Origin: Halofilum ochraceum
GTDB lineage: Bacteria; Pseudomonadota; Gammaproteobacteria; XJ16; Halofilaceae
NCBI RefSeq assembly: GCF_001614315.2
Contig: NZ_LVEG02000004.1
Span: 248,001-312,000, forward strand
DNA: 64,000 nucleotides
Direction: 5' to 3'
The translations under genes were made by a program, and so were the position numbers. Positions 39,815 to 49,399 of this stretch are shown here, piece after piece; position 1 is the first letter of the stretch; each line of letters opens with the position of its first letter. Below the pieces are notes generated by a model, which saw nothing but the letters and a program-made list of their open reading frames with translations, made no database searches and was not told the origin of the DNA.

Positions 39815-40001
39815 GCTGTTGACTTATGCACACGGCGCGTGCCGGGGGCACCGGATCAAGCGCAGGGTGCAACCGTTTGCGCGCCGTTTCATAAGTCACT
39901 GTTTTCCGGGGGTGTAACTGAATGGATAAAATCTGACCAGAGCCCACAAGGGCGCCGCGAGATGCCGGGACAGGGCAACAACGCCCAGACTTTCCACATG
40001 T

Positions 40002-40024
40002 TTATCCACAGGTTCTGGGGATAA
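40002..40024 (+). repeat. DnaA-box palindrome, copy 1
   Basis: Arms TTATCCACAG and CTGGGGATAA around GTT, one mismatch from a perfect inverted repeat. A weaker box CTTTCCACA starts 12 bases upstream (39990). Confidence 0.85.
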
Positions 40025-40335
40025 CCGGCGATACCCGCGTCGTGCCAGGCACTTACGTATTTTCCGTAGGCCAGGGGCTGGGATCGTGCTCTCTCTGCCG
40101 ACGTGAAGAGTACTTCAGCGCTGATAAAAAGGGTCTCTGTCAACCCGAAAATCCGATTTATCAACATGATTGAACAGTGGGTACGGGTCGGTCAGGGGCG
40201 CTGCCACACTTGGCGCGCGGTTTTGTAAGTATTTGATTGTTGGGGTCTTAAACAACTGTTCAGAGTTTGGCCAGCCCCCACTGGGTGGCCGCTGGAGGCC
40301 GGGCTGCGGCCATCTCCCCCAGATTATTCACAGAC

Positions 40336-40358
40336 TTATCCACAGGTTCTGGGGATAA
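40336..40358 (+). repeat. DnaA-box palindrome, copy 2
   Basis: Identical to copies 1 and 3 over 23 bp. TTATTCACA starts exactly 12 bases upstream (40324). 334 bases from copy 1. Confidence 0.88.
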
Positions 40359-40690
40359 CCGGCGTAAGTGCCGTTGTAACAACAAGTTAGCGCCGCTGTC
40401 ATAGCCACTGGGGGATGCCGGCCACCCCCGCAAACCGTGTTTTCGGTTCCAGTGGAAATCGAGGCCCGAAATATTTCTCGTGCGGATTGCCTGTCAAGGT
40501 CTTGACTCAAGTTATGCACAATGCATTGGCCGTCTTGCCGGATGTTGACTCGTCTGCGAGCGATAACATGCCTGTCTGCGTAACCATTTGTTTTCCCGGT
40601 AAAAAATCACATGAACAAAAAATGACCAAAGGCACCGGGAGCGCAGCAAGAGGCCGTGTAGCGACGTGTCCCCCCACATTATCCACATTG

Positions 40691-40713
40691 TTATCCACAG
40701 GTTCTGGGGATAA
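40691..40713 (+). repeat. DnaA-box palindrome, copy 3
   Basis: Identical 23-bp core. TTATCCACA starts exactly 12 bases upstream (40679), and an AT-rich tract with runs of A and T (40580-40628) lies 50 bases further up. 355 bases from copy 2. Confidence 0.88.
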
Positions 40714-40836
40714 ACCGCTTTCTCCTTTGGCCACGGGCACTTGGCGCCAACCGTTACAGTGGCCGCCGTCGACGCCCGGCGCGCGCTCGGCGATAATGCC
40801 CGGCTTCGGCCGGCCGGCCGCGAACCGATTCTGTCA

Positions 40837-43800
40837 GTGAGCCCATCCGTGATCGCATTCAACGGCTTCAGCTTCGACGAACTGCAGACCCCCGCCGGCC
40901 TGGCGCGGCTCGACGCGTGCTTCCGCGAACGCGTGGCCGCGGCCGACGGGGCGCTGGCCGAGCGCCTCGACGCTCTGCGGGGTGGCGAGCCACTCGGGCC
41001 GCGCGATCATTCCGCGCTGCTGCTCGAACTCGCGCCGCACCTGGAGCGTTTCGTCACCGGGCTCTTCGGCATCGAAGCGAGCGTCGAGGCCCTGCGCGCA
41101 GAGTTGACCCGTCACGATCCGGTCCTGCGCTTCAAGAATGAGTACGTCCTGCGCCGCACCCGCAAGATCCGCGAGCTGCCGGATGAAGACTTCGACCGCA
41201 TCGACGCCTGGCTGGAGCAGCAGCTCGACGCCGATTACAGCGACCGCGAGGCGGCCGTCGCCGCCTTCGCCAACGGCCTGCTCATCGACCCCGAGCGCAA
41301 CGAAGAAACGATCAACCGCATCGCCGAGTGGTGCGCGCTCGCGCAGCGCACGGAGGCCGGCGCGCGTGCCGTCAACGGCTGGACCGCCTTCAAGCTGCCG
41401 CAGAAGGTCGATCACACGGCCTTGGTGCCACTGGTCGCCGCCCACGAAGGCGAGGCCGATGTCCTCAACGCCAGTCCCGAGCGCCTGCGCCGCCGCGACG
41501 GCTTCCAGCTCACCGACCGCCGCATGGACACCCGCCACATCCAGGGCGAGGTCAACTACTGCATCTACTGCCACGAGCACAACGGCGACTTCTGCTCCAA
41601 GGGTTTCCCGGAGAAGAAGAAGCAGCCCGAGCTCGGCCTCAAGGTCGACCCGCTCGGCAACAAGCTGACCGGTTGCCCGCTCGAGGAGAAGATCTCCGAG
41701 ATGCACGTCTGCCGGCGCGACGCCATGCCCGTCGCCGCGCTGGCGATGGCCATGATCGACAACCCGATGATCCCGGCGACCGGACACCGCATCTGCAACG
41801 ACTGCATGAAGGCCTGCATCTACCAGAAGCAGGATCCGGTCGACATCCCGCAGATCGAGACGGGCACGCTCACCGATGTGCTGCGCCTGCCCTGGGGTGT
41901 GGAGGTCTACCACCTGCTGGCGCGCTGGAACCCGCTGCGGCCCGAGCAGTACGTCCAGCAGCCGGACAACGGCCGACGCGTCATGGTCGCGGGCATGGGC
42001 CCGTCCGGCTTCACCATGGCGCACCACCTGACCATGGCCGGCTGCGCCGTGCTTGGTATCGACGGCCTCAAGATCGAGCCGCTGCCGGAAGAGTTGCTCA
42101 ACGCGCCGGTACGCGACTGGGACGCGCTGGAAGAGCCGCTGGATGAACGCATCCTGCTCGGGTTCGGCGGCGTCGCCGAGTACGGCATCACCGTGCGCTG
42201 GGACAAGAACTTCCTGAAGCTGATCTACCTCACGCTCGCGCGCCGCCACAGCTTTGCCGTGCGCGGCGGCGTGCGTCTGGGCGGCACGGTCACCATCGAG
42301 GACGCCTGGCAGCTCGGTTTCGACCACGTCAGCGTCGCCACCGGCACCGGGCTGCCGCGCGTCGTCTCCATCGGCAACAGCCTCGCGCGCGGTATGCGCC
42401 AGGCGAGCGACTTCCTCATGGCGCTGCAGCTCACCGGCGCCGGCAAGGAATCGAGCATCGCCAACCTGCAGGTGCGCCTGCCCGCGGTGGTCGTCGGCGG
42501 CGGCCTCACCGGCGTGGATACCGCCACCGAGGTGCAGGCGTACTACATCAAGCAGGTCGAGAAGACGCTCTGGCGCTACGAAACGCTGGTCGCCGAGCGC
42601 GGCGAGGATGCCGTGCTCAGCGCCCTCGGCGACGAGGACCGCGAGATCCTCGCGGAATTCCTCGAACACGGCCGCGCCGTGCGCGATGAGCGCGCCCGCG
42701 CCGCCGCCGTCGGCGAGACGCCCGACTTCACGCCGCTGCTACAGGCCTGGGGCGGGGTGACCATCGCCTACCGCAAGGGCCTGAACGATTCGCCGGCGTA
42801 CACGCGCAACCACGAGGAAGTGGCCAAGGCGACGGAGGAGGGCATCCGCTACGCCGAGGGCCTCGATCCGCTGCACTGCGAACTCGACGACTACGGCCAT
42901 GTGCGTACGCTCATCTGCCGGCGCATGCACAACCAGGGCGGGCGCTGGCTGGCCGGCCGCGAGGAGGTCCACCTGCCGGCCAAGGCCGTGTTCGTCGCCG
43001 CCGGCACCGTGCCCAATACCATCTACGAGCGCGAATACCCCGGTACCTTCGCGCTCAATGGCGACTTCTTCGAGTCACACGTCGAACACCACGACCGCCT
43101 GCAGCCGGTCGCCCAGGCCGAGCACGCGAAATCACAGGAGTTCGGCCCGTTCACCTCGTACAACCAGGGCGGCCACAAGGTCAGCTTCATCGGCGACACG
43201 CACCCCGCCTTCCACGGCAGCGTGGTCAAGGCGATCGCCTCATCCATGCGCACGTACCCCGAGATCCTGGACGCGCTCGGCAGCGCGCCCCGCGCCAGCG
43301 ACGATCAACGCGACAGCGAAGCGTTCCTCGAGGAAGTCGCCGACCGGTTCCAGGCGACGGTCCTCTCGGTCAACACCAGCGACACCGCCATGGCCGAGGT
43401 CTGGGTACGCGCCCCCATGGCCGCGCGCAACTTCCGCCCCGGCCAGTTCTACCGCCTGCAGACCTTCGAGTCGCTGTCACCGGTCGTCGAAGGCACGCGC
43501 CTGCAGGTGCCGCTGCTGACCGTCTCCGGCACCGGCGTGAAGGACGACATGATCCGCCTCATGGTCCTGCAGTTCGGCGCCGGCCCACGCCTCGTCGGCC
43601 GTCTCAAACCCGGCGACCCGATCGTGCTCATGGGCCCGACCGGCAAACCCACCGAGATCCCGGAGAACGAGACCGTCATGGTCATCGCCGGCCGCTGGGG
43701 TGCCGCCGCCATGCTCGACATCGGCCACGCCCTGCGCGAAGGCGGCAACCGCGTCCTCTACATCGCCGCCTTCGGCAACGCCCGCGACGTCGATCTCCAG

Positions 43801-44343
43801 AGCGAACTCGAAAACGGTGCCGACCAGATCGTCTGGGCCACCGCCAATGAACCGACCATCGAGGCCCGACGCGAACAGGACCGCAGCGTCATCGCCACCG
43901 ACATGGTCGATCTCGTACAACAATACGGCGACGGCAAAGTCGCCGACGACCACACCATCGACCTGCAACAGGTCGACCGCATCCTCGTCATGGGCGGCAC
44001 GGGATTGCTGAGAGGCTTCCAGGGCGCACTCACCGAAGGCGCACTGACAAACCACTTCCGCCCCGACATCCAGGCCATGGGCACTGCCGGCAGCCCCATG
44101 CAGTGCATGCTCAAGGGCGTCTGCGCCCAGTGCCTGCAATGGCAGAAAGACCCCGAAACCGGCGAACGCACCCGACCCGTCTTCTCCTGCGCCGAACAGG
44201 ATCAGCCGCTGGCGTGGATCGACCTCGATAACCTGCAGGCGAGACAGCAGCAGAACCGGCTGCCGGATCGGCTCACGTCGATGTGGCTGGATTATGTGCT
44301 GGAGCGGGAAGGGCAATCGCCGGAGGGCGCGCGGGCCGGGTAA
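40837..44343 (+). CDS. Fused GltD-like / PyrK-like flavin oxidoreductase
   Basis: 1,168 residues. Early Cys motifs (CIYCHEHNGDFC, HRICNDCMKACIYQ; the latter 4Fe-4S-like as in GltD) precede a two-dinucleotide-fold region: GMGPSG after RRVMVA, and VVVGGGLTGVDTATEV. From about 865 a ferredoxin-reductase unit follows (FRPGQFYRLQTF, IVLMGPTGKPTEIP) ending in a PyrK-type 2Fe-2S motif (CMLKGVCAQC ... FSC). It is built to pass electrons between NAD(P)H, FAD and Fe-S centres; the substrate is unknown. The start is uncertain: GTG 40837 or GTG 40849 are preferred over a TTG at 40741 that falls beside the DnaA boxes. Confidence 0.8.
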   Translation: MSPSVIAFNGFSFDELQTPAGLARLDACFRERVAAADGALAERLDALRGGEPLGPRDHSALLLELAPHLERFVTGLFGIEASVEALRAELTRHDPVLRFKNEYVLRRTRKIRELPDEDFDRIDAWLEQQLDADYSDREAAVAAFANGLLIDPERNEETINRIAEWCALAQRTEAGARAVNGWTAFKLPQKVDHTALVPLVAAHEGEADVLNASPERLRRRDGFQLTDRRMDTRHIQGEVNYCIYCHEHNGDFCSKGFPEKKKQPELGLKVDPLGNKLTGCPLEEKISEMHVCRRDAMPVAALAMAMIDNPMIPATGHRICNDCMKACIYQKQDPVDIPQIETGTLTDVLRLPWGVEVYHLLARWNPLRPEQYVQQPDNGRRVMVAGMGPSGFTMAHHLTMAGCAVLGIDGLKIEPLPEELLNAPVRDWDALEEPLDERILLGFGGVAEYGITVRWDKNFLKLIYLTLARRHSFAVRGGVRLGGTVTIEDAWQLGFDHVSVATGTGLPRVVSIGNSLARGMRQASDFLMALQLTGAGKESSIANLQVRLPAVVVGGGLTGVDTATEVQAYYIKQVEKTLWRYETLVAERGEDAVLSALGDEDREILAEFLEHGRAVRDERARAAAVGETPDFTPLLQAWGGVTIAYRKGLNDSPAYTRNHEEVAKATEEGIRYAEGLDPLHCELDDYGHVRTLICRRMHNQGGRWLAGREEVHLPAKAVFVAAGTVPNTIYEREYPGTFALNGDFFESHVEHHDRLQPVAQAEHAKSQEFGPFTSYNQGGHKVSFIGDTHPAFHGSVVKAIASSMRTYPEILDALGSAPRASDDQRDSEAFLEEVADRFQATVLSVNTSDTAMAEVWVRAPMAARNFRPGQFYRLQTFESLSPVVEGTRLQVPLLTVSGTGVKDDMIRLMVLQFGAGPRLVGRLKPGDPIVLMGPTGKPTEIPENETVMVIAGRWGAAAMLDIGHALREGGNRVLYIAAFGNARDVDLQSELENGADQIVWATANEPTIEARREQDRSVIATDMVDLVQQYGDGKVADDHTIDLQQVDRILVMGGTGLLRGFQGALTEGALTNHFRPDIQAMGTAGSPMQCMLKGVCAQCLQWQKDPETGERTRPVFSCAEQDQPLAWIDLDNLQARQQQNRLPDRLTSMWLDYVLEREGQSPEGARAG

Positions 44344-44637
44344 CCCACTCAGTGCCTGCCCGGCAGGGAAAGTCGACCAATTCCCGCTGTACACTCCCAG
44401 GCACGCCTGCTAGCTTTTGCTCGCAGGCGCGGGATAGGCGGCGCAACGCCGTCTTTCGACAGCCAGCCGACGTGGAGGGATCCAGGATGGTTCGGGTTCG
44501 GCGCTTCTCAAATGCCTGGTATGGCCGGGACTCTCCTCGATTAACCAGCCGAGAGCCCACATCGCGGGTTCGCCCGGCCGTGCGCGATAGGCGGAAACTT
44601 GCCGTGTTTCATCACGGAATTCTTCCGTCCATGACCT
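44344..44637. other. Junction upstream of the cassette array
   Basis: About 290 bases. A small hairpin CGCCTGC (44404-44410)/GCAGGCG (44423-44429) may end the oxidoreductase transcript. Nearer the array, GGCGGAA (44591-44597) can pair with TTCCGTCC (44623-44630) through one bulged base, enclosing ACGGAATTCTTCCGT, and this ends at the core site GTTAGGC. It may be a worn attC or attI. No integrase gene is seen. Confidence 0.4.
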
Positions 44638-44655
44638 GTTAGGCAAGGGAGGCGT

Positions 44656-45198
44656 ATGGAACGTTCGCTCAATCGAAATAACGTTGAGGCCGCAATCAGC
44701 AAATACGAGGCCTCAATCGAAGAGATCGGCGAAACGATCTCGGATCTTCGGGGCGTCTCCTTATTTCAATCATTGAAACGTAGGCCGATTGGGGTCGGAC
44801 CCTATCCGCACGTCACGTTATTCGAAGCGGCAAACCGGATTATGACCGACCTTGTGATCCTGAAAGGAGTGCGTTTTCTTCTCCATTCAAACGCATTACC
44901 TTTCGACGAATACATCGTCGAGTACGGGAATGAGGACGCGAACGATCACGATATATCGGCCGAGAAAAGTGGCCAACGACTTATCGCCGAAGCGTTCAAT
45001 GTCGCCCCATCGTTCTTTCAGGGAAAAAAGAACGCCATGCGGAAAAAGCTCCGCACCAGCAGCGTGCGCGCAGACTATATGATTATCTTGGCCAATTCAG
45101 ACGCAGTACCGCAAGACTACGCTCCAAAGTACCTGGCGAAAGAATATTTCGTGTTTGTCGATTTGGAATCAGGAAAGGGTACTGTGATGCCTAACTAG
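44656..45198 (+). CDS. Cassette 1 protein, unrecognised
   Basis: 180 residues; codon usage and GC are unlike the chromosome around it. Starts 12 bases after the core site with GGGAGG just upstream; the stop codon TAG lies inside the attC site, as often in cassettes. An alpha-helical N-terminus (to about 35) is followed by PHVTLFEAANRIMTDLVILKG and a basic patch QGKKNAMRKKLR; the end is strand-rich (YFVFVDLESGKGTV). I cannot name a family; a nuclease-like fold is imaginable from EAFNV...QGKK but not supported. Confidence 0.7.
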   Translation: MERSLNRNNVEAAISKYEASIEEIGETISDLRGVSLFQSLKRRPIGVGPYPHVTLFEAANRIMTDLVILKGVRFLLHSNALPFDEYIVEYGNEDANDHDISAEKSGQRLIAEAFNVAPSFFQGKKNAMRKKLRTSSVRADYMIILANSDAVPQDYAPKYLAKEYFVFVDLESGKGTVMPN

Positions 45199-45268
45199 TC
45201 TTTCAAGCGGACCGCTGAAATCGCGGCTTCACCGCGCTTTCAGCGGCCGCTCAACTGAGGCGTTAGAT
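45189..45268 (+). other. attC site of cassette 1
   Basis: 80 bases from R'' GCCTAAC (45189-45195) to R' GTTAGAT (45262-45268). The inside folds as a long hairpin: AAGCGG with CCGCTC, then CCGCTGAAA with TTTCAGCGG, then CGCGG with CCGCG around CTTCA. Both boxes match the RYYYAAC/GTTRRRY consensus. Confidence 0.85.
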
Positions 45269-45306
45269 GGGAACACACAATTAATACCGTTACCTTGGAG
45301 AGCGAC

Positions 45307-45933
45307 ATGGCCGAATACACATACACTACCGTTCCCGGGAAGATGAGTAAGTTACTGGCCAAAATTCGCGAGGTGGGCGTACCTTCCAAGGTCAACTAGC
45401 GCTGGTTGGAGTCGATAGGCTTTAAATCCAGCAACGATCGTACTCTCCTGTCCGTTCTAAAATTTATCGATTTCGTCGATGATTCGAGCGTACCCACATC
45501 GCGATGGAGAGACTATCGGGGTGGTAATCACAAGCAGGTTCTCGCGAATGCGATACGCGAGGGCTATCGGGATCTATTCGACGTCTACCCAGACGCCAAC
45601 GATCGGACCGCTAGCGAAATCGAGCACGTTGTCAGCACAAACACATCGGCAGGGCGCCAGGCGGTCACGAAGGCAGTCCGCACGTTCCACACACTATGCG
45701 CGGAGGCAGATTTTACGGCTCTCGGGTCCGACGAGCCCGCGTCCACAAGTACCAGTAACGAGTCGGACACGGGCGCGGGCACGGTAGCCGCCGGGTCGGC
45801 GAACACGTCAGCGCCTAGTACGTCCGGGCCTTCTCTGCACGTGGATATACAGGTTCACATATCTCCGGAGGCATCCGCTGATCAAATCGATCAAATCTTC
45901 GAGAGCATGTCGAAGCACCTCTACAAGCAATGA
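45307..45933 (+). pseudogene. DUF5343 protein gene with in-frame amber codon
   Basis: ATG 45307 has TTGGAGAG upstream and reads MAEYTYTTVPGKMSKLLAKI, the typical DUF5343 start. After 30 codons comes TAG (45397-45399), then the same frame continues with RWLESIGFKSSNDRTLLSVL to TGA 45933. The family normally has Gln at that point (VNQ-W), so a single CAG to TAG change broke it. The C-terminal third is Ser/Thr-rich linker plus an acidic helix. Expression would need readthrough, suppression or a restart at TTG 45406. Its end overlaps the next gene (ATGA). Confidence 0.75.
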
Positions 45934-46448
45934 AGGACTTGGTAAAAGCGACACTTGAGGCAAGCCGGGCTGCGCAGTTTGACGCGACGACGCTCGCTGG
46001 GAGCGTCCCGGACGAAGGATTGCCCTCATACAGCCATCAGGTACTTCCAAAGTCGCTATACAAAAATACGCGCGGTTATATCGAAAAGGTCGCTAATCAG
46101 GTCAACGGCTGCTATGAGAAGGGATGGTTCGACGCAGCCGCTGTGATGGCGCGTCGTCTCCTTGAAACGCTAATAATCGAATGCTTTGAGAAGCACAATA
46201 TCGCTGCGAAAATAAAGAACAGCAATGGCGATTTCTACCACTTGCGAGATCTGGTCGGTCTCTTTTTGGGAGAAACCACGTGGAACGTTGGGCGTAACAC
46301 GAAACGCGCTCTGCCAAGACTAAAAGATATTGGAGACAAGTCGGCCCACAGCAGAAGATACACGGCACGACGCTCGGATCTCGACAAAGTCCGAGTTGAA
46401 CTTCGAGACGTTACCGAGGAGTTGCTCTACATCGGTGGTCTCAAGTAG
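45930..46448 (+). CDS. DUF4145/HEPN-like protein (cassette 2)
   Basis: 172 residues. The helical core WFDAAAVMARRLLETLIIECF and the motif LKDIGDKSAH match the DUF4145-like HEPN pattern (LRxxGNxAAH). The HEPN RNase motif R-x4-6-H is not met: the nearest Arg (R130) is ten residues before His140, so it may be a non-catalytic HEPN or use other residues. Start ATG overlaps the DUF5343 stop, so the pair is translationally coupled and probably works together. Lower GC than the chromosome. Confidence 0.7.
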   Translation: MKDLVKATLEASRAAQFDATTLAGSVPDEGLPSYSHQVLPKSLYKNTRGYIEKVANQVNGCYEKGWFDAAAVMARRLLETLIIECFEKHNIAAKIKNSNGDFYHLRDLVGLFLGETTWNVGRNTKRALPRLKDIGDKSAHSRRYTARRSDLDKVRVELRDVTEELLYIGGLK

Positions 46449-46451
46449 TGC

Positions 46452-46509
46452 CTCTAACTAGTTAATTCAGCCCAAAGACTCCGTCGGCGGCGGATTAAAT
46501 CCGTTATAA
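46452..46509 (+). other. attC site of cassette 2
   Basis: 58 bases from R'' CTCTAAC (46452-46458) to R' GTTATAA (46503-46509). TTAATTCAGCC pairs, with bulged bases, with GGCGGATTAA. R' departs from GTTRRRY, so this is a weaker site than that of cassette 1, but its boxes match the neighbouring cassette ends as expected. Confidence 0.6.
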
Positions 46510-46548
46510 CCAACCGCGTACGCGACCACGCGCAAAAGTGATTCAGCA

Positions 46549-47070
46549 ATGGAAGAACTAAGGAAATTCGACCGGCTAACAGAAATCGATGAACGGCACG
46601 AATTGCTTGCGCGCGTCACCGGACAGTTACTCGATATCGAGAAATTGCACAACGTGGTATCGAACGAGATTCTAACCAGCGGCGTCCCGGAAGATATACA
46701 CGGTCAATACAATGTGGCGCGGAACATGGCCGTTTATACCTACTACTTGTACTCATTAGCCCCAGAAGTCCATATGAAAACGTACGCTGTAATGGAGATG
46801 GGAGTCCGTCGGTATTACGGAGACGACGAACAGACGAATCTTAAGGCGCTGCTCCAAAAGGCGCTAGACAGAGGGGTTATTAGTGATTCCGGATTTCGGG
46901 ATTGCGAGAGTGCCTGCGGGACCTCTTACACCCAGACGTTTGTGGATACGTTTCCGAAGCTGCGGAACAGCGCGGCTCATGGAAGCTCTATGTTGGTGCC
47001 TCACTGCGTCGGCCACATTAGGCGATGTGCGGATTTCCTGAACCAGCTCTTTCCGGCGGAGGCGTGCTAG
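46549..47070 (+). CDS. HEPN-domain protein, possible RNase (cassette 3)
   Basis: 173 residues, mainly helical. The C-terminal part carries KLRNSAAHGSS: Arg139, Asn140 and His144 fit the catalytic R-N-x3-H form of the HEPN R-x4-6-H motif seen in toxin and defence RNases. The N-terminal half (EELRKFDRLTEIDERHELL) is a predicted helical pair, and YAVMEMGVRRYYGDDEQTNLKALL resembles the HEPN core helix. No antitoxin-like gene shares the cassette. ATG 46549 has only weak ribosome-site support. Function as an RNase is inference from the motif. Confidence 0.68.
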   Translation: MEELRKFDRLTEIDERHELLARVTGQLLDIEKLHNVVSNEILTSGVPEDIHGQYNVARNMAVYTYYLYSLAPEVHMKTYAVMEMGVRRYYGDDEQTNLKALLQKALDRGVISDSGFRDCESACGTSYTQTFVDTFPKLRNSAAHGSSMLVPHCVGHIRRCADFLNQLFPAEAC

Positions 47071-47143
47071 TTATAACAATATGCTGGAGACGACGCTGGA
47101 TTTCCCCCGTAAACTGGGCACCTGGCGTGCAAGAATTGAGTTT

Positions 47144-49399
47144 ATGAAGAAAAGTACCGCCCGCTCCGCGTGGTCCTGGCTGCGCGAGTACTGGCTTAGT
47201 CCGCGCCGAATCCGCTTCTGGGTCGCGGCCGTCGCGATCCTGTACACGGTTCTCGGCTTCCTGGTCCTGCCCTGGTTGGCGACCGCGTATGCGGTGAATG
47301 TGGCGGAGGACGATCTCGGCCGCGATCTGCGCATCGAAACGGTCCGTACGAATCCGTTCACGCTCACCCTGGAGATCGAGGATCTCGCGCTGGACGACTT
47401 CGATGGCCACGAACTCGTCGGCTTCGAGCGCCTGTTCGTCGATGTCGCCTGGTCGAGCCTGTGGGAGTGGACGACCGTTATACCCGCGGCGCAGCTGGAA
47501 GGCGCCCGCGTGCACGAGGAACAATTTGATTCGGGGGGAACCCGTTTCACCCGTCTGCTGGGCGAGTTCCAGCGCCGACCGCTGCCGCGCGCCGGTCCGG
47601 ACGAGGCCATCATCCGGCCCATACGGACCGATGGGGCCGCGCCGGTCGCGCTGCACGACATCGATTTCTCGCTCGAGGACTTCATTCTCGCCGACGGTGC
47701 GGTCGCACCTTTTCAGGTCAGCGGTCGCTTCGACCTCGGCGGGGCGTTCGCTTTTGATGGCAGCGTGCAGCTGCTGCCGGCGCTCGATCTCGCCGGGACG
47801 CTCGATGTTGATGACGTGGCTTTAGCGCTGGCGGAGCCCTTCGCCCAGCGTATCGCGAACATTCGGGTCGACAGTGGCAGCCTCAGCACGGAAGGCGAAC
47901 TGCGCAGCGGCCCAGACGATCCGCTGACCTATGCGGGGAGCGCCCGGATTGATGCCCTGGATATCGGCGAACGCGAGGGTGGCGAGGATGTCGTGGGCTG
48001 GCAGGCGCTCACGATCGATGAGATCGATTTCGGTCTCGGCACACGGTCTCTGGAACTGTCGGTTATCCGACTCGAGGGGCCATCCGCCCGGGTATTCATC
48101 GCCGAGGACCGCAGCACGAATCTGGGGGAACTGCTGGTGGATCAGCCCGCGGCGGCGGAGCCGGCACAGGAGCAGGAGACCGAGCCGTTCGATATCGTGA
48201 TCGGCGGCCTCCGCCTCGATGGCGGTGTACTCGCCTTTACGGACCGTTCTCTGCCGCTGCCGTTCGCAACACGCGTGCAGCAACTCAGCGGCGGCATTTC
48301 ACGGCTCGCGCCCGGGCAGGAGGAGCCGGCGCGGGTTGACCTGCAAGGTCAGGTCGCGGATTACGGTCAGGCCCGGATCGACGGGGAGTTGAACCCGTGG
48401 AATCCGCTCAGCAGCACCCGGGTCGATCTGGTTCTCGAGAACCTGGATATCCCGGAGTTGACGCCCTACGCGGTCCAGTTCGCAGGTCGCCGCATCGCCG
48501 CGGGCCGTATGGACCTCGATCTCGGCTACGTGCTGGATGACGGCCGTCTCGACGCGCGCAACAGTATTGTTCTGCGGGATCTGCAGCTGGGGGAACGCTT
48601 CGAACACCCGAATGCGACGAATCTGCCGCTGGGTCTGGCGATCGCGCTACTCAAGGACAGCGACGGCGTGATCAGTGTTGATATACCGGTCCAGGGGAAC
48701 GTCAACGATCCCGAGTTCTCGTTCGGACCGGCGATCCGGCAGGCGCTCACGGATATTCTGAAAGACATTGTCAGTTCACCGTTCAACCTGTTGGCCAGCA
48801 TTGTGGGCGGCGACCCCGATGAACTCGCAAAGGTGGCCTTCGCTCCCGGTTCCAGCGAGATTCCGCCGCCGCAGCGTGAACGCCTTGACCAGCTGCGCAG
48901 CGCGCTCGAGAAACGGCCGGAACTCGCGATCGAGCTCCCGGGGCCGTATGCACCGGAGTTGGATCGCCCGGCGCTCCAGCGCCAGCGTGCCCGGGCGGCC
49001 CTGGTCGAGCGGCTCGACGAGGCGGGCGTCGAGGTCGCCAACCCCAGCCTGAGTGCCGCGGATACCCGCAACACGCTGGAAGCGATGTTTGCCGATCGGT
49101 ATCCGCGGCGGTCGCTTGCCGAGGTCCGTGAACGCTTCACCACGGCGGAAAGTGACGAGGAGCCGGAGTTCGATGCCGCCGAGTACCGCGAGCACCTCGC
49201 CGCTGAGGTAAGCGCCGCCGAGGAGGTCACCGAAGAGGATCTCGCCGCGCTGGCGCAGGCCCGCGCCGACGCCGTCCGCAGCTACATCCTGGGCGAGGGT
49301 GACCCGTCGGTCGAACCTGGTCGGGTCCGCTGGCTGGCACCGGCAGAAGTGGAGGCCGATGACTCGGTCGTCCTGGAGATCGGTCTTGACGCCCAATGA
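47144..49399 (+). CDS. DUF748 (AsmA/YhdP-related) envelope protein
   Basis: 751 residues. An N-terminal membrane anchor (about 18-47) is followed by a long beta-rich region with repeated patterns (IETVRTNPFTLTLEIEDLAL; FDIVIGGLRLDGGVLAFTDRS; LPLGLAIALLKDSDGVISVD) and a helical C-terminus (EERARALV-like EPAQ stretches). DUF748 proteins are thought to sit between the membranes and relate to AsmA-type lipid transport. It is shorter than the usual 1,000 or more residues. Start ATG 47144 is chosen; ATG 47081 lies in the attC remnant of cassette 3. Confidence 0.85.
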   Translation: MKKSTARSAWSWLREYWLSPRRIRFWVAAVAILYTVLGFLVLPWLATAYAVNVAEDDLGRDLRIETVRTNPFTLTLEIEDLALDDFDGHELVGFERLFVDVAWSSLWEWTTVIPAAQLEGARVHEEQFDSGGTRFTRLLGEFQRRPLPRAGPDEAIIRPIRTDGAAPVALHDIDFSLEDFILADGAVAPFQVSGRFDLGGAFAFDGSVQLLPALDLAGTLDVDDVALALAEPFAQRIANIRVDSGSLSTEGELRSGPDDPLTYAGSARIDALDIGEREGGEDVVGWQALTIDEIDFGLGTRSLELSVIRLEGPSARVFIAEDRSTNLGELLVDQPAAAEPAQEQETEPFDIVIGGLRLDGGVLAFTDRSLPLPFATRVQQLSGGISRLAPGQEEPARVDLQGQVADYGQARIDGELNPWNPLSSTRVDLVLENLDIPELTPYAVQFAGRRIAAGRMDLDLGYVLDDGRLDARNSIVLRDLQLGERFEHPNATNLPLGLAIALLKDSDGVISVDIPVQGNVNDPEFSFGPAIRQALTDILKDIVSSPFNLLASIVGGDPDELAKVAFAPGSSEIPPPQRERLDQLRSALEKRPELAIELPGPYAPELDRPALQRQRARAALVERLDEAGVEVANPSLSAADTRNTLEAMFADRYPRRSLAEVRERFTTAESDEEPEFDAAEYREHLAAEVSAAEEVTEEDLAALAQARADAVRSYILGEGDPSVEPGRVRWLAPAEVEADDSVVLEIGLDAQ

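Follow-up and report, generated by a model that had tools for sequence, protein, structure and literature searches.

The array and its flanking genes

The stretch of DNA analysed here (64,000 nt, hereafter the window; C1, C5 and C24 denote other contigs of the same genome, G000, and G001 and G002 are same-genus genomes used for comparison) contains an integron cassette array of three cassettes and four genes, flanked by an oxidoreductase-like gene on the left and a DUF748 gene on the right (Table 1). As the initial annotation had stated, all of the cassette genes point forward and the array is low in GC (0.50–0.59, as against about 0.64–0.72 outside it). The same annotation had identified three core sites and, for each cassette, an R'' box complementary to that cassette's own left core. 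All three pairs are located where it placed them, although the matching carries weight only for the first two. Specifically, in a set of 50 adjacent cassette pairs, drawn almost entirely from intI-linked arrays, the R'' box matches its own left core at 7/7 positions in 37 and at 6/7 in 6, whereas random box pairs reach 7/7 complementarity in 12%. Because these benchmark pairs show the same pattern as cassettes 1 (7/7) and 2 (6/7), the latter look like true cassettes. In contrast, the third 7/7 match is trivial and therefore weak as evidence, since the octamer GTTATAAC is its own reverse complement and any repeat of it yields 7/7.

Table 1. Features of the array and its surroundings (window positions).
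Feature	Position	Strand	Remarks
Left flanking gene, 1200-aa oxidoreductase-like	40741–44343	+	conserved in both same-genus genomes
Possible leftover of LexA-box-like intI promoter	44386–44393	+	GCTGTACA; same 8-mer in the same place at the C5 intI head
Head, first inverted repeat	44433–44457	+	GATAGGCGGCGCAACGCCGTCTTTC; repeat unit in three heads
attI-like block	44583–44644	+	second repeat 44586–44616; first core GTTAGGC (G/TTAGGC) 44638–44644; 40/62 to C5
Cassette 1 gene, 180 aa	44656–45198	+	no known family
attC1	45189–45268	+	R'' box GCCTAAC 45189–45195; cassette 2 core GTTAGAT 45262–45268; 30.7 bits, E 2.3e-5 in 64 kb
Cassette 2 gene A, DUF5343/PADLOC PDC-M34A	45307–45933	+	TAG at 45397–45399
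Cassette 2 gene B, 172 aa, predicted HEPN fold	45930–46448	+	weak DUF4145/AbiJ similarity
attC2 (degenerate), probable	46452–46509	+	R'' box CTCTAAC 46452–46458; cassette 3 core GTTATAA 46503–46509; 13.9 bits; 39/58 to C24 attC
Cassette 3 gene, 173 aa	46549–47070	+	HEPN-type RX4H motif RNSAAH (by eye)
attC3, left half only (R''-spacer-L'')	47071–47096	+	R'' box TTATAAC 47071–47077; half-site profile 14.9, second in window
Right flanking gene, DUF748	47144–49399 (start approximate)	+	Pfam DUF748 E 4e-188

The attC sites were scored with a covariance model trained on 28 attC sites adjoining intact intI genes, all from other genomes; as none came from the genome under study, the scores are free of circularity. 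Of the two sites for which the initial annotation had proposed such a check, attC1 is accepted outright, and its DNA folds with a z of −6.5 on the − strand. attC2 passes only marginally by the model alone, with an E of 0.4 in 64 kb and of 0.019 in a 3-kb region, and its fold z is −0.4. However, its identity with an attC on C24 (L100:12101-12158, 23.4 bits) was reached by 0 of 2000 interior shuffles, and the model score combined with this same-genome homology suggests that attC2 is a genuine site. Judged against the hits in intI-linked loci, which score between the high teens and 47 bits, attC1 is typical and attC2 degenerate. At the right end, a half-attC profile (R''-spacer-L'', 26 columns) was applied to all 127,950 window positions; attC1 takes the top score (23.6) and TTATAACAATATGCTGGAGACGACGC at 47071 comes second, with the next sites at 14.6 and 14.0. 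This half site directly adjoins the stop codon of the final cassette gene, and no hairpin was found at this third site; as the right half of attC3 is missing, the array is cut at its right end. Isolated attC-like matches elsewhere (C1:679932 at 20 bits, others at 15.5 bits or less) were treated as noise or as single uncertain sites.

The left flanking gene is 94% identical in G001 and 72% identical in G002, and G001 keeps a fragment of the DUF748 gene. The initial annotation had held that identical flanks without cassette variation in relatives would speak against the array; G001 instead diverges, its DNA similarity to the left flank stopping at 44364 with different sequence beyond. No empty insertion site was found in G001 or G002.

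Gene content of the cassettes

The protein of cassette 1 has no match in Pfam, PADLOC or NCBIfam and no relative among 368 other genomes. Cassette 2 carries two genes. Gene A matches the PADLOC family PDC-M34A over the protein (E 5e-37), but its homologues are open where an in-frame TAG stands in this copy, and the DUF5343 score is 127 bits with the stop read through and 91 bits without the first part. The broken frame of this first gene is a correction to the initial annotation. Gene B is predicted to adopt a HEPN fold: its AlphaFold2 model (pLDDT 82) finds HEPN domains as the best Foldseek matches in the PDB, with a top probability of 1.00, although the E-values are only 0.2–0.7. The protein of cassette 3 has no significant family match and distant relatives in two genomes (G129 and G186), and its structure model (pLDDT 43) is too poor for use. 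None of the proteins of cassette 1, gene B or cassette 3 has a match in plasmids.

The two genes of cassette 2 resemble PDC-M34A (DUF5343) genes and their HEPN-fold partners elsewhere, which stand next to each other in six loci (in Xanthomonas, Acidobacteria, Uliginosibacterium and a MAG) and also in G151. The MAG has an attC (17.4 bits) 7 bases past the second gene of the pair; likewise, a relative of gene B sits between attCs in G240, and in G096 a DUF5343 gene comes after an attC. The pair is conserved outside integrons too, in Xanthomonas massiliensis, Acidobacteria and Uliginosibacterium (L120-L125, L165). No described function was found for it. Unlike those other pairs, the one in the window forms a single attC cassette with gene A interrupted, and it is a candidate defence system only. 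The other arrays of the genome carry SIR2, PIN_12, HEPN and PD-T7-5-like genes. Defence is the likely content of the cassettes, and their genes may act against phages.

Integrase genes and the sequence ahead of the first cassette

No convincing remnant of intI was found by tblastn with five IntI proteins in the window and 20 kb on each side, in agreement with the initial annotation, which had reported none within that distance. The genome-wide search that it had proposed does find an intI, albeit a dead one: the single clear relative of the integron-integrase family lies in pieces on C5. Profile positions 1-71, 198-238 and 232-314 are spread there over different frames, an in-frame stop is present, and positions 72-197 are deleted, a part to which the surroundings of the first catalytic arginine in IntI proteins belong. 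An intI with catalytic residues, as in a complete integron, is accordingly absent at the window and wrecked on C5. Beside the dead gene lies an attC array (C5:430413-433031; 38.3, 35.3, 25.7 and 15.8 bits) with, by eye, at least one further attC at about L026:7107-7175, and upstream of the dead gene is the LexA-box-like TACTGTTTATTTGTACAG, also found by eye. In G002, an intact IntI with a LexA-box-like promoter lies at a contig end (L067, G002:C114, about 172-1137); the attC model found no attC in that genome, and no similar head occurs within the ~170 nt available before the contig end.

The sequence directly left of the first core (44433–44644), not recognised for what it resembles in the initial annotation, is homologous to the C5 attI region, that is, to the sequence that separates the first cassette there from the dead intI. 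Both of these heads contain, in one order, GCGGGATAGGCGGCG...CGCCGTCTTTC, TGCCGTGTTTCATCACG and ACCTGTTAGG, and the C24 array opens with the same head. In the ungapped 62-nt block that ends at the core, C5 and C24 agree at 45/62 positions, window and C5 at 40/62, and window and C24 at a modest 35/62, compared with maximum identities of 30–33 in 20,000 shuffles. The 17-mer TGCCGTGTTTMATCACG is exact only at the window and C5 in a genome search, and weaker matches outside the C24 head, where inspected, lack the following CCTGTT. Similarly, the repeat unit occurs at 0–1 mismatch only in the window, C5 intI and C24 heads (~1 Mb of genome searched). A fourth head, at C5:224720-224781, emerged from a profile search of 0.99 Mb; it agrees with the C5 intI head at 43/62 positions and has the LexA-box-like promoter CTGTACAAATAACCAGT upstream, but it is decayed and no longer shows a clear core. 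When aligned locally with the C5 intI head, this fourth head scores 138 (shuffle maximum 57), the C24 head 91 (59) and the window head 79 (56). Furthermore, in leave-one-out profiles over 1.77 Mb, each omitted head beats every site outside the head loci (31.5 for the window head, as against 20.7 for the best such site). The GCTGTACA left of the window head may, tentatively, be an 8-base remainder of the intI promoter.

Downstream (3′) of the fourth head are a gene for a 186-aa protein, a sequence that by eye looks like a ruined attC (AATCACTGCAACCGACGC...GACCGCTGAGCCTTTTTGTTGAG) but that the attC model did not detect, and a SIR2-domain gene. In this locus (L197 1-6450, G000:C5:220001-226450), SIR2-domain and PDDEXK-like genes follow the head, and an intact 409-aa phage-type tyrosine recombinase adjoins it. 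The C24 array (L100 8366-13219, G000:C24) is integrase-less, with four attC, and lies near a contig end; its genes are PD-T7-5-like, SIR2 (ThsA-like) and PIN_12.

The window head is probably a true attI, a name given for its position and similarity. It could instead be a shared promoter or regulatory region for cassette expression, copied along with the arrays, and no recombination site at all. Its inverted repeats do resemble operators, and expression near attI comes from a promoter there (PMC9024848). We regard this as very unlikely, given that the head ends exactly at the G/TT core in 3/4 copies and that a sigma-70 scan found no promoter-like site in the head or before the array; moreover, a sequence may be attI and promoter at once.

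Origin of the locus

With at least two attC in the same orientation (attC1 and attC2, the third being a half site) and no integron integrase found inside the window or within 20 kb of it, the locus belongs with the CALINs, which are about as common as complete integrons. To our knowledge, attI is not recognised outside class 1, so that for a CALIN it is usually undecidable whether it is a beheaded integron or a set of cassettes at stray sites. In the window, however, the question becomes answerable because the dead intI elsewhere in the genome supplies an attI sequence. The initial annotation had left the choice between a CALIN-type array and one split from its integron; the former label is right, and the latter origin is favoured by the attI-like head that directly precedes the first cassette. 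The homology of the heads at four loci likewise points to an attI-headed remnant of a multiplied platform, and not to cassettes dropped at a random site. Hence, the window locus is most likely a beheaded integron, with its attI-like head kept and its last attC only half present, and we consider it probable that it is an integrase-less remnant (CALIN) of a platform whose head was multiplied to at least four loci.

An IntI acting in trans could, on the other hand, have inserted the cassettes at an ordinary chromosomal site of the attG type that was never an attI, the likeness of the heads being due to target preference or to a dispersed repeat. Cassette insertion by IntI at attG sites has precedent (Loot et al. 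2024, as cited in PMC12901181), and the window has points in common with such insertions: its cassettes lie away from the integrase gene, intI is fully absent, and the head has palindromic units. As for unrelated sequence at the first core, the similarity of G001 ends at 44364, short of that core, and there is no empty site to compare. The homology of the heads nonetheless argues against an insertion of this kind, in that what stands before the first cassette is a relative of attI and not unrelated chromosomal sequence. At four loci the likeness extends, with its order unchanged, over ~160–230 bp; one head lies between intI and the first cassette and another has a LexA-box-like promoter; no further copy occurs in the half of the genome searched (about 1.77 of 3.64 Mb); and an attI region is not something that a secondary insertion would bring along. 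We therefore think an attG origin improbable. Even less credible, and in our judgement close to negligible, is an assembly artefact in which a contig break or misjoin separated the array from the C5 integron. The assembly is indeed a draft of 35 contigs, and the C24 array runs towards a contig end, but the window array is internal to a contig of 531 kb and has its own head and a conserved chromosomal gene directly to its left, and on C5 the array possesses both a complete head and cassettes of its own.

The beheaded integron could have come about as follows. A platform head, an attI region of ~160–230 bp with inverted repeats and a G/TT core, would have given rise to related copies at at least four loci, two of them keeping the LexA-box-like intI promoter. 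From what is known of integron biology, an active IntI would have put circular cassettes in at the core, and successive insertions would have led to the three cassettes and four genes of the window, including the DUF5343 and HEPN-fold pair. Decay would have come later, with intI lost at the window and wrecked on C5, attC2 drifting, attC3 halved and a stop appearing in gene A of cassette 2. The cassettes, then, presumably entered at the window head, and the array is presumably immobile now; as no working IntI was found, they should be frozen unless an outside integrase arrives. For the multiplication of the head, duplication of the platform followed by loss of intI fits best, because two heads have the intI promoter (one with the wrecked intI) and two have the attI part only. 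It is also conceivable, although we think it rather unlikely, that a single LexA-controlled IntI acted in trans on attI platforms at four or more chromosomal sites, with selection for this shared IntI keeping the heads alike after they had lost, or without their ever having had, an intI of their own. In that case, several sites would have been open to cassette loading and expression.

It is informative to set these loci beside Xanthomonas, in which inactivated sedentary chromosomal integrons occur with satellite CALINs (PMC12444791). The two cases are alike in having a dead intI at one locus and cassette arrays elsewhere; unlike in Xanthomonas, for which we found no such report, the satellite arrays and the intI locus here share a homologous head. 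CALINs are known and common, and several attI-like heads in one genome are a modest novelty, shared heads not having been found described in a limited literature search. The comparison of array heads within a genome could be extended to other CALINs, and the presence of several heads in one genome leads to the testable idea that one integrase can serve many platforms.

A further observation concerns the left flanking gene, ahead of which (39954–40718) are three 76-nt direct repeats with four exact DnaA boxes (TTATCCACA), where 0.06 would be expected by chance in the window. GC skew does not turn at these boxes (40002–40699), and a replication origin there is therefore unlikely. Each repeat also carries TTATCCACAGGTTCTGGGGATAA, and similar repeats precede the same gene in G001 and G002.
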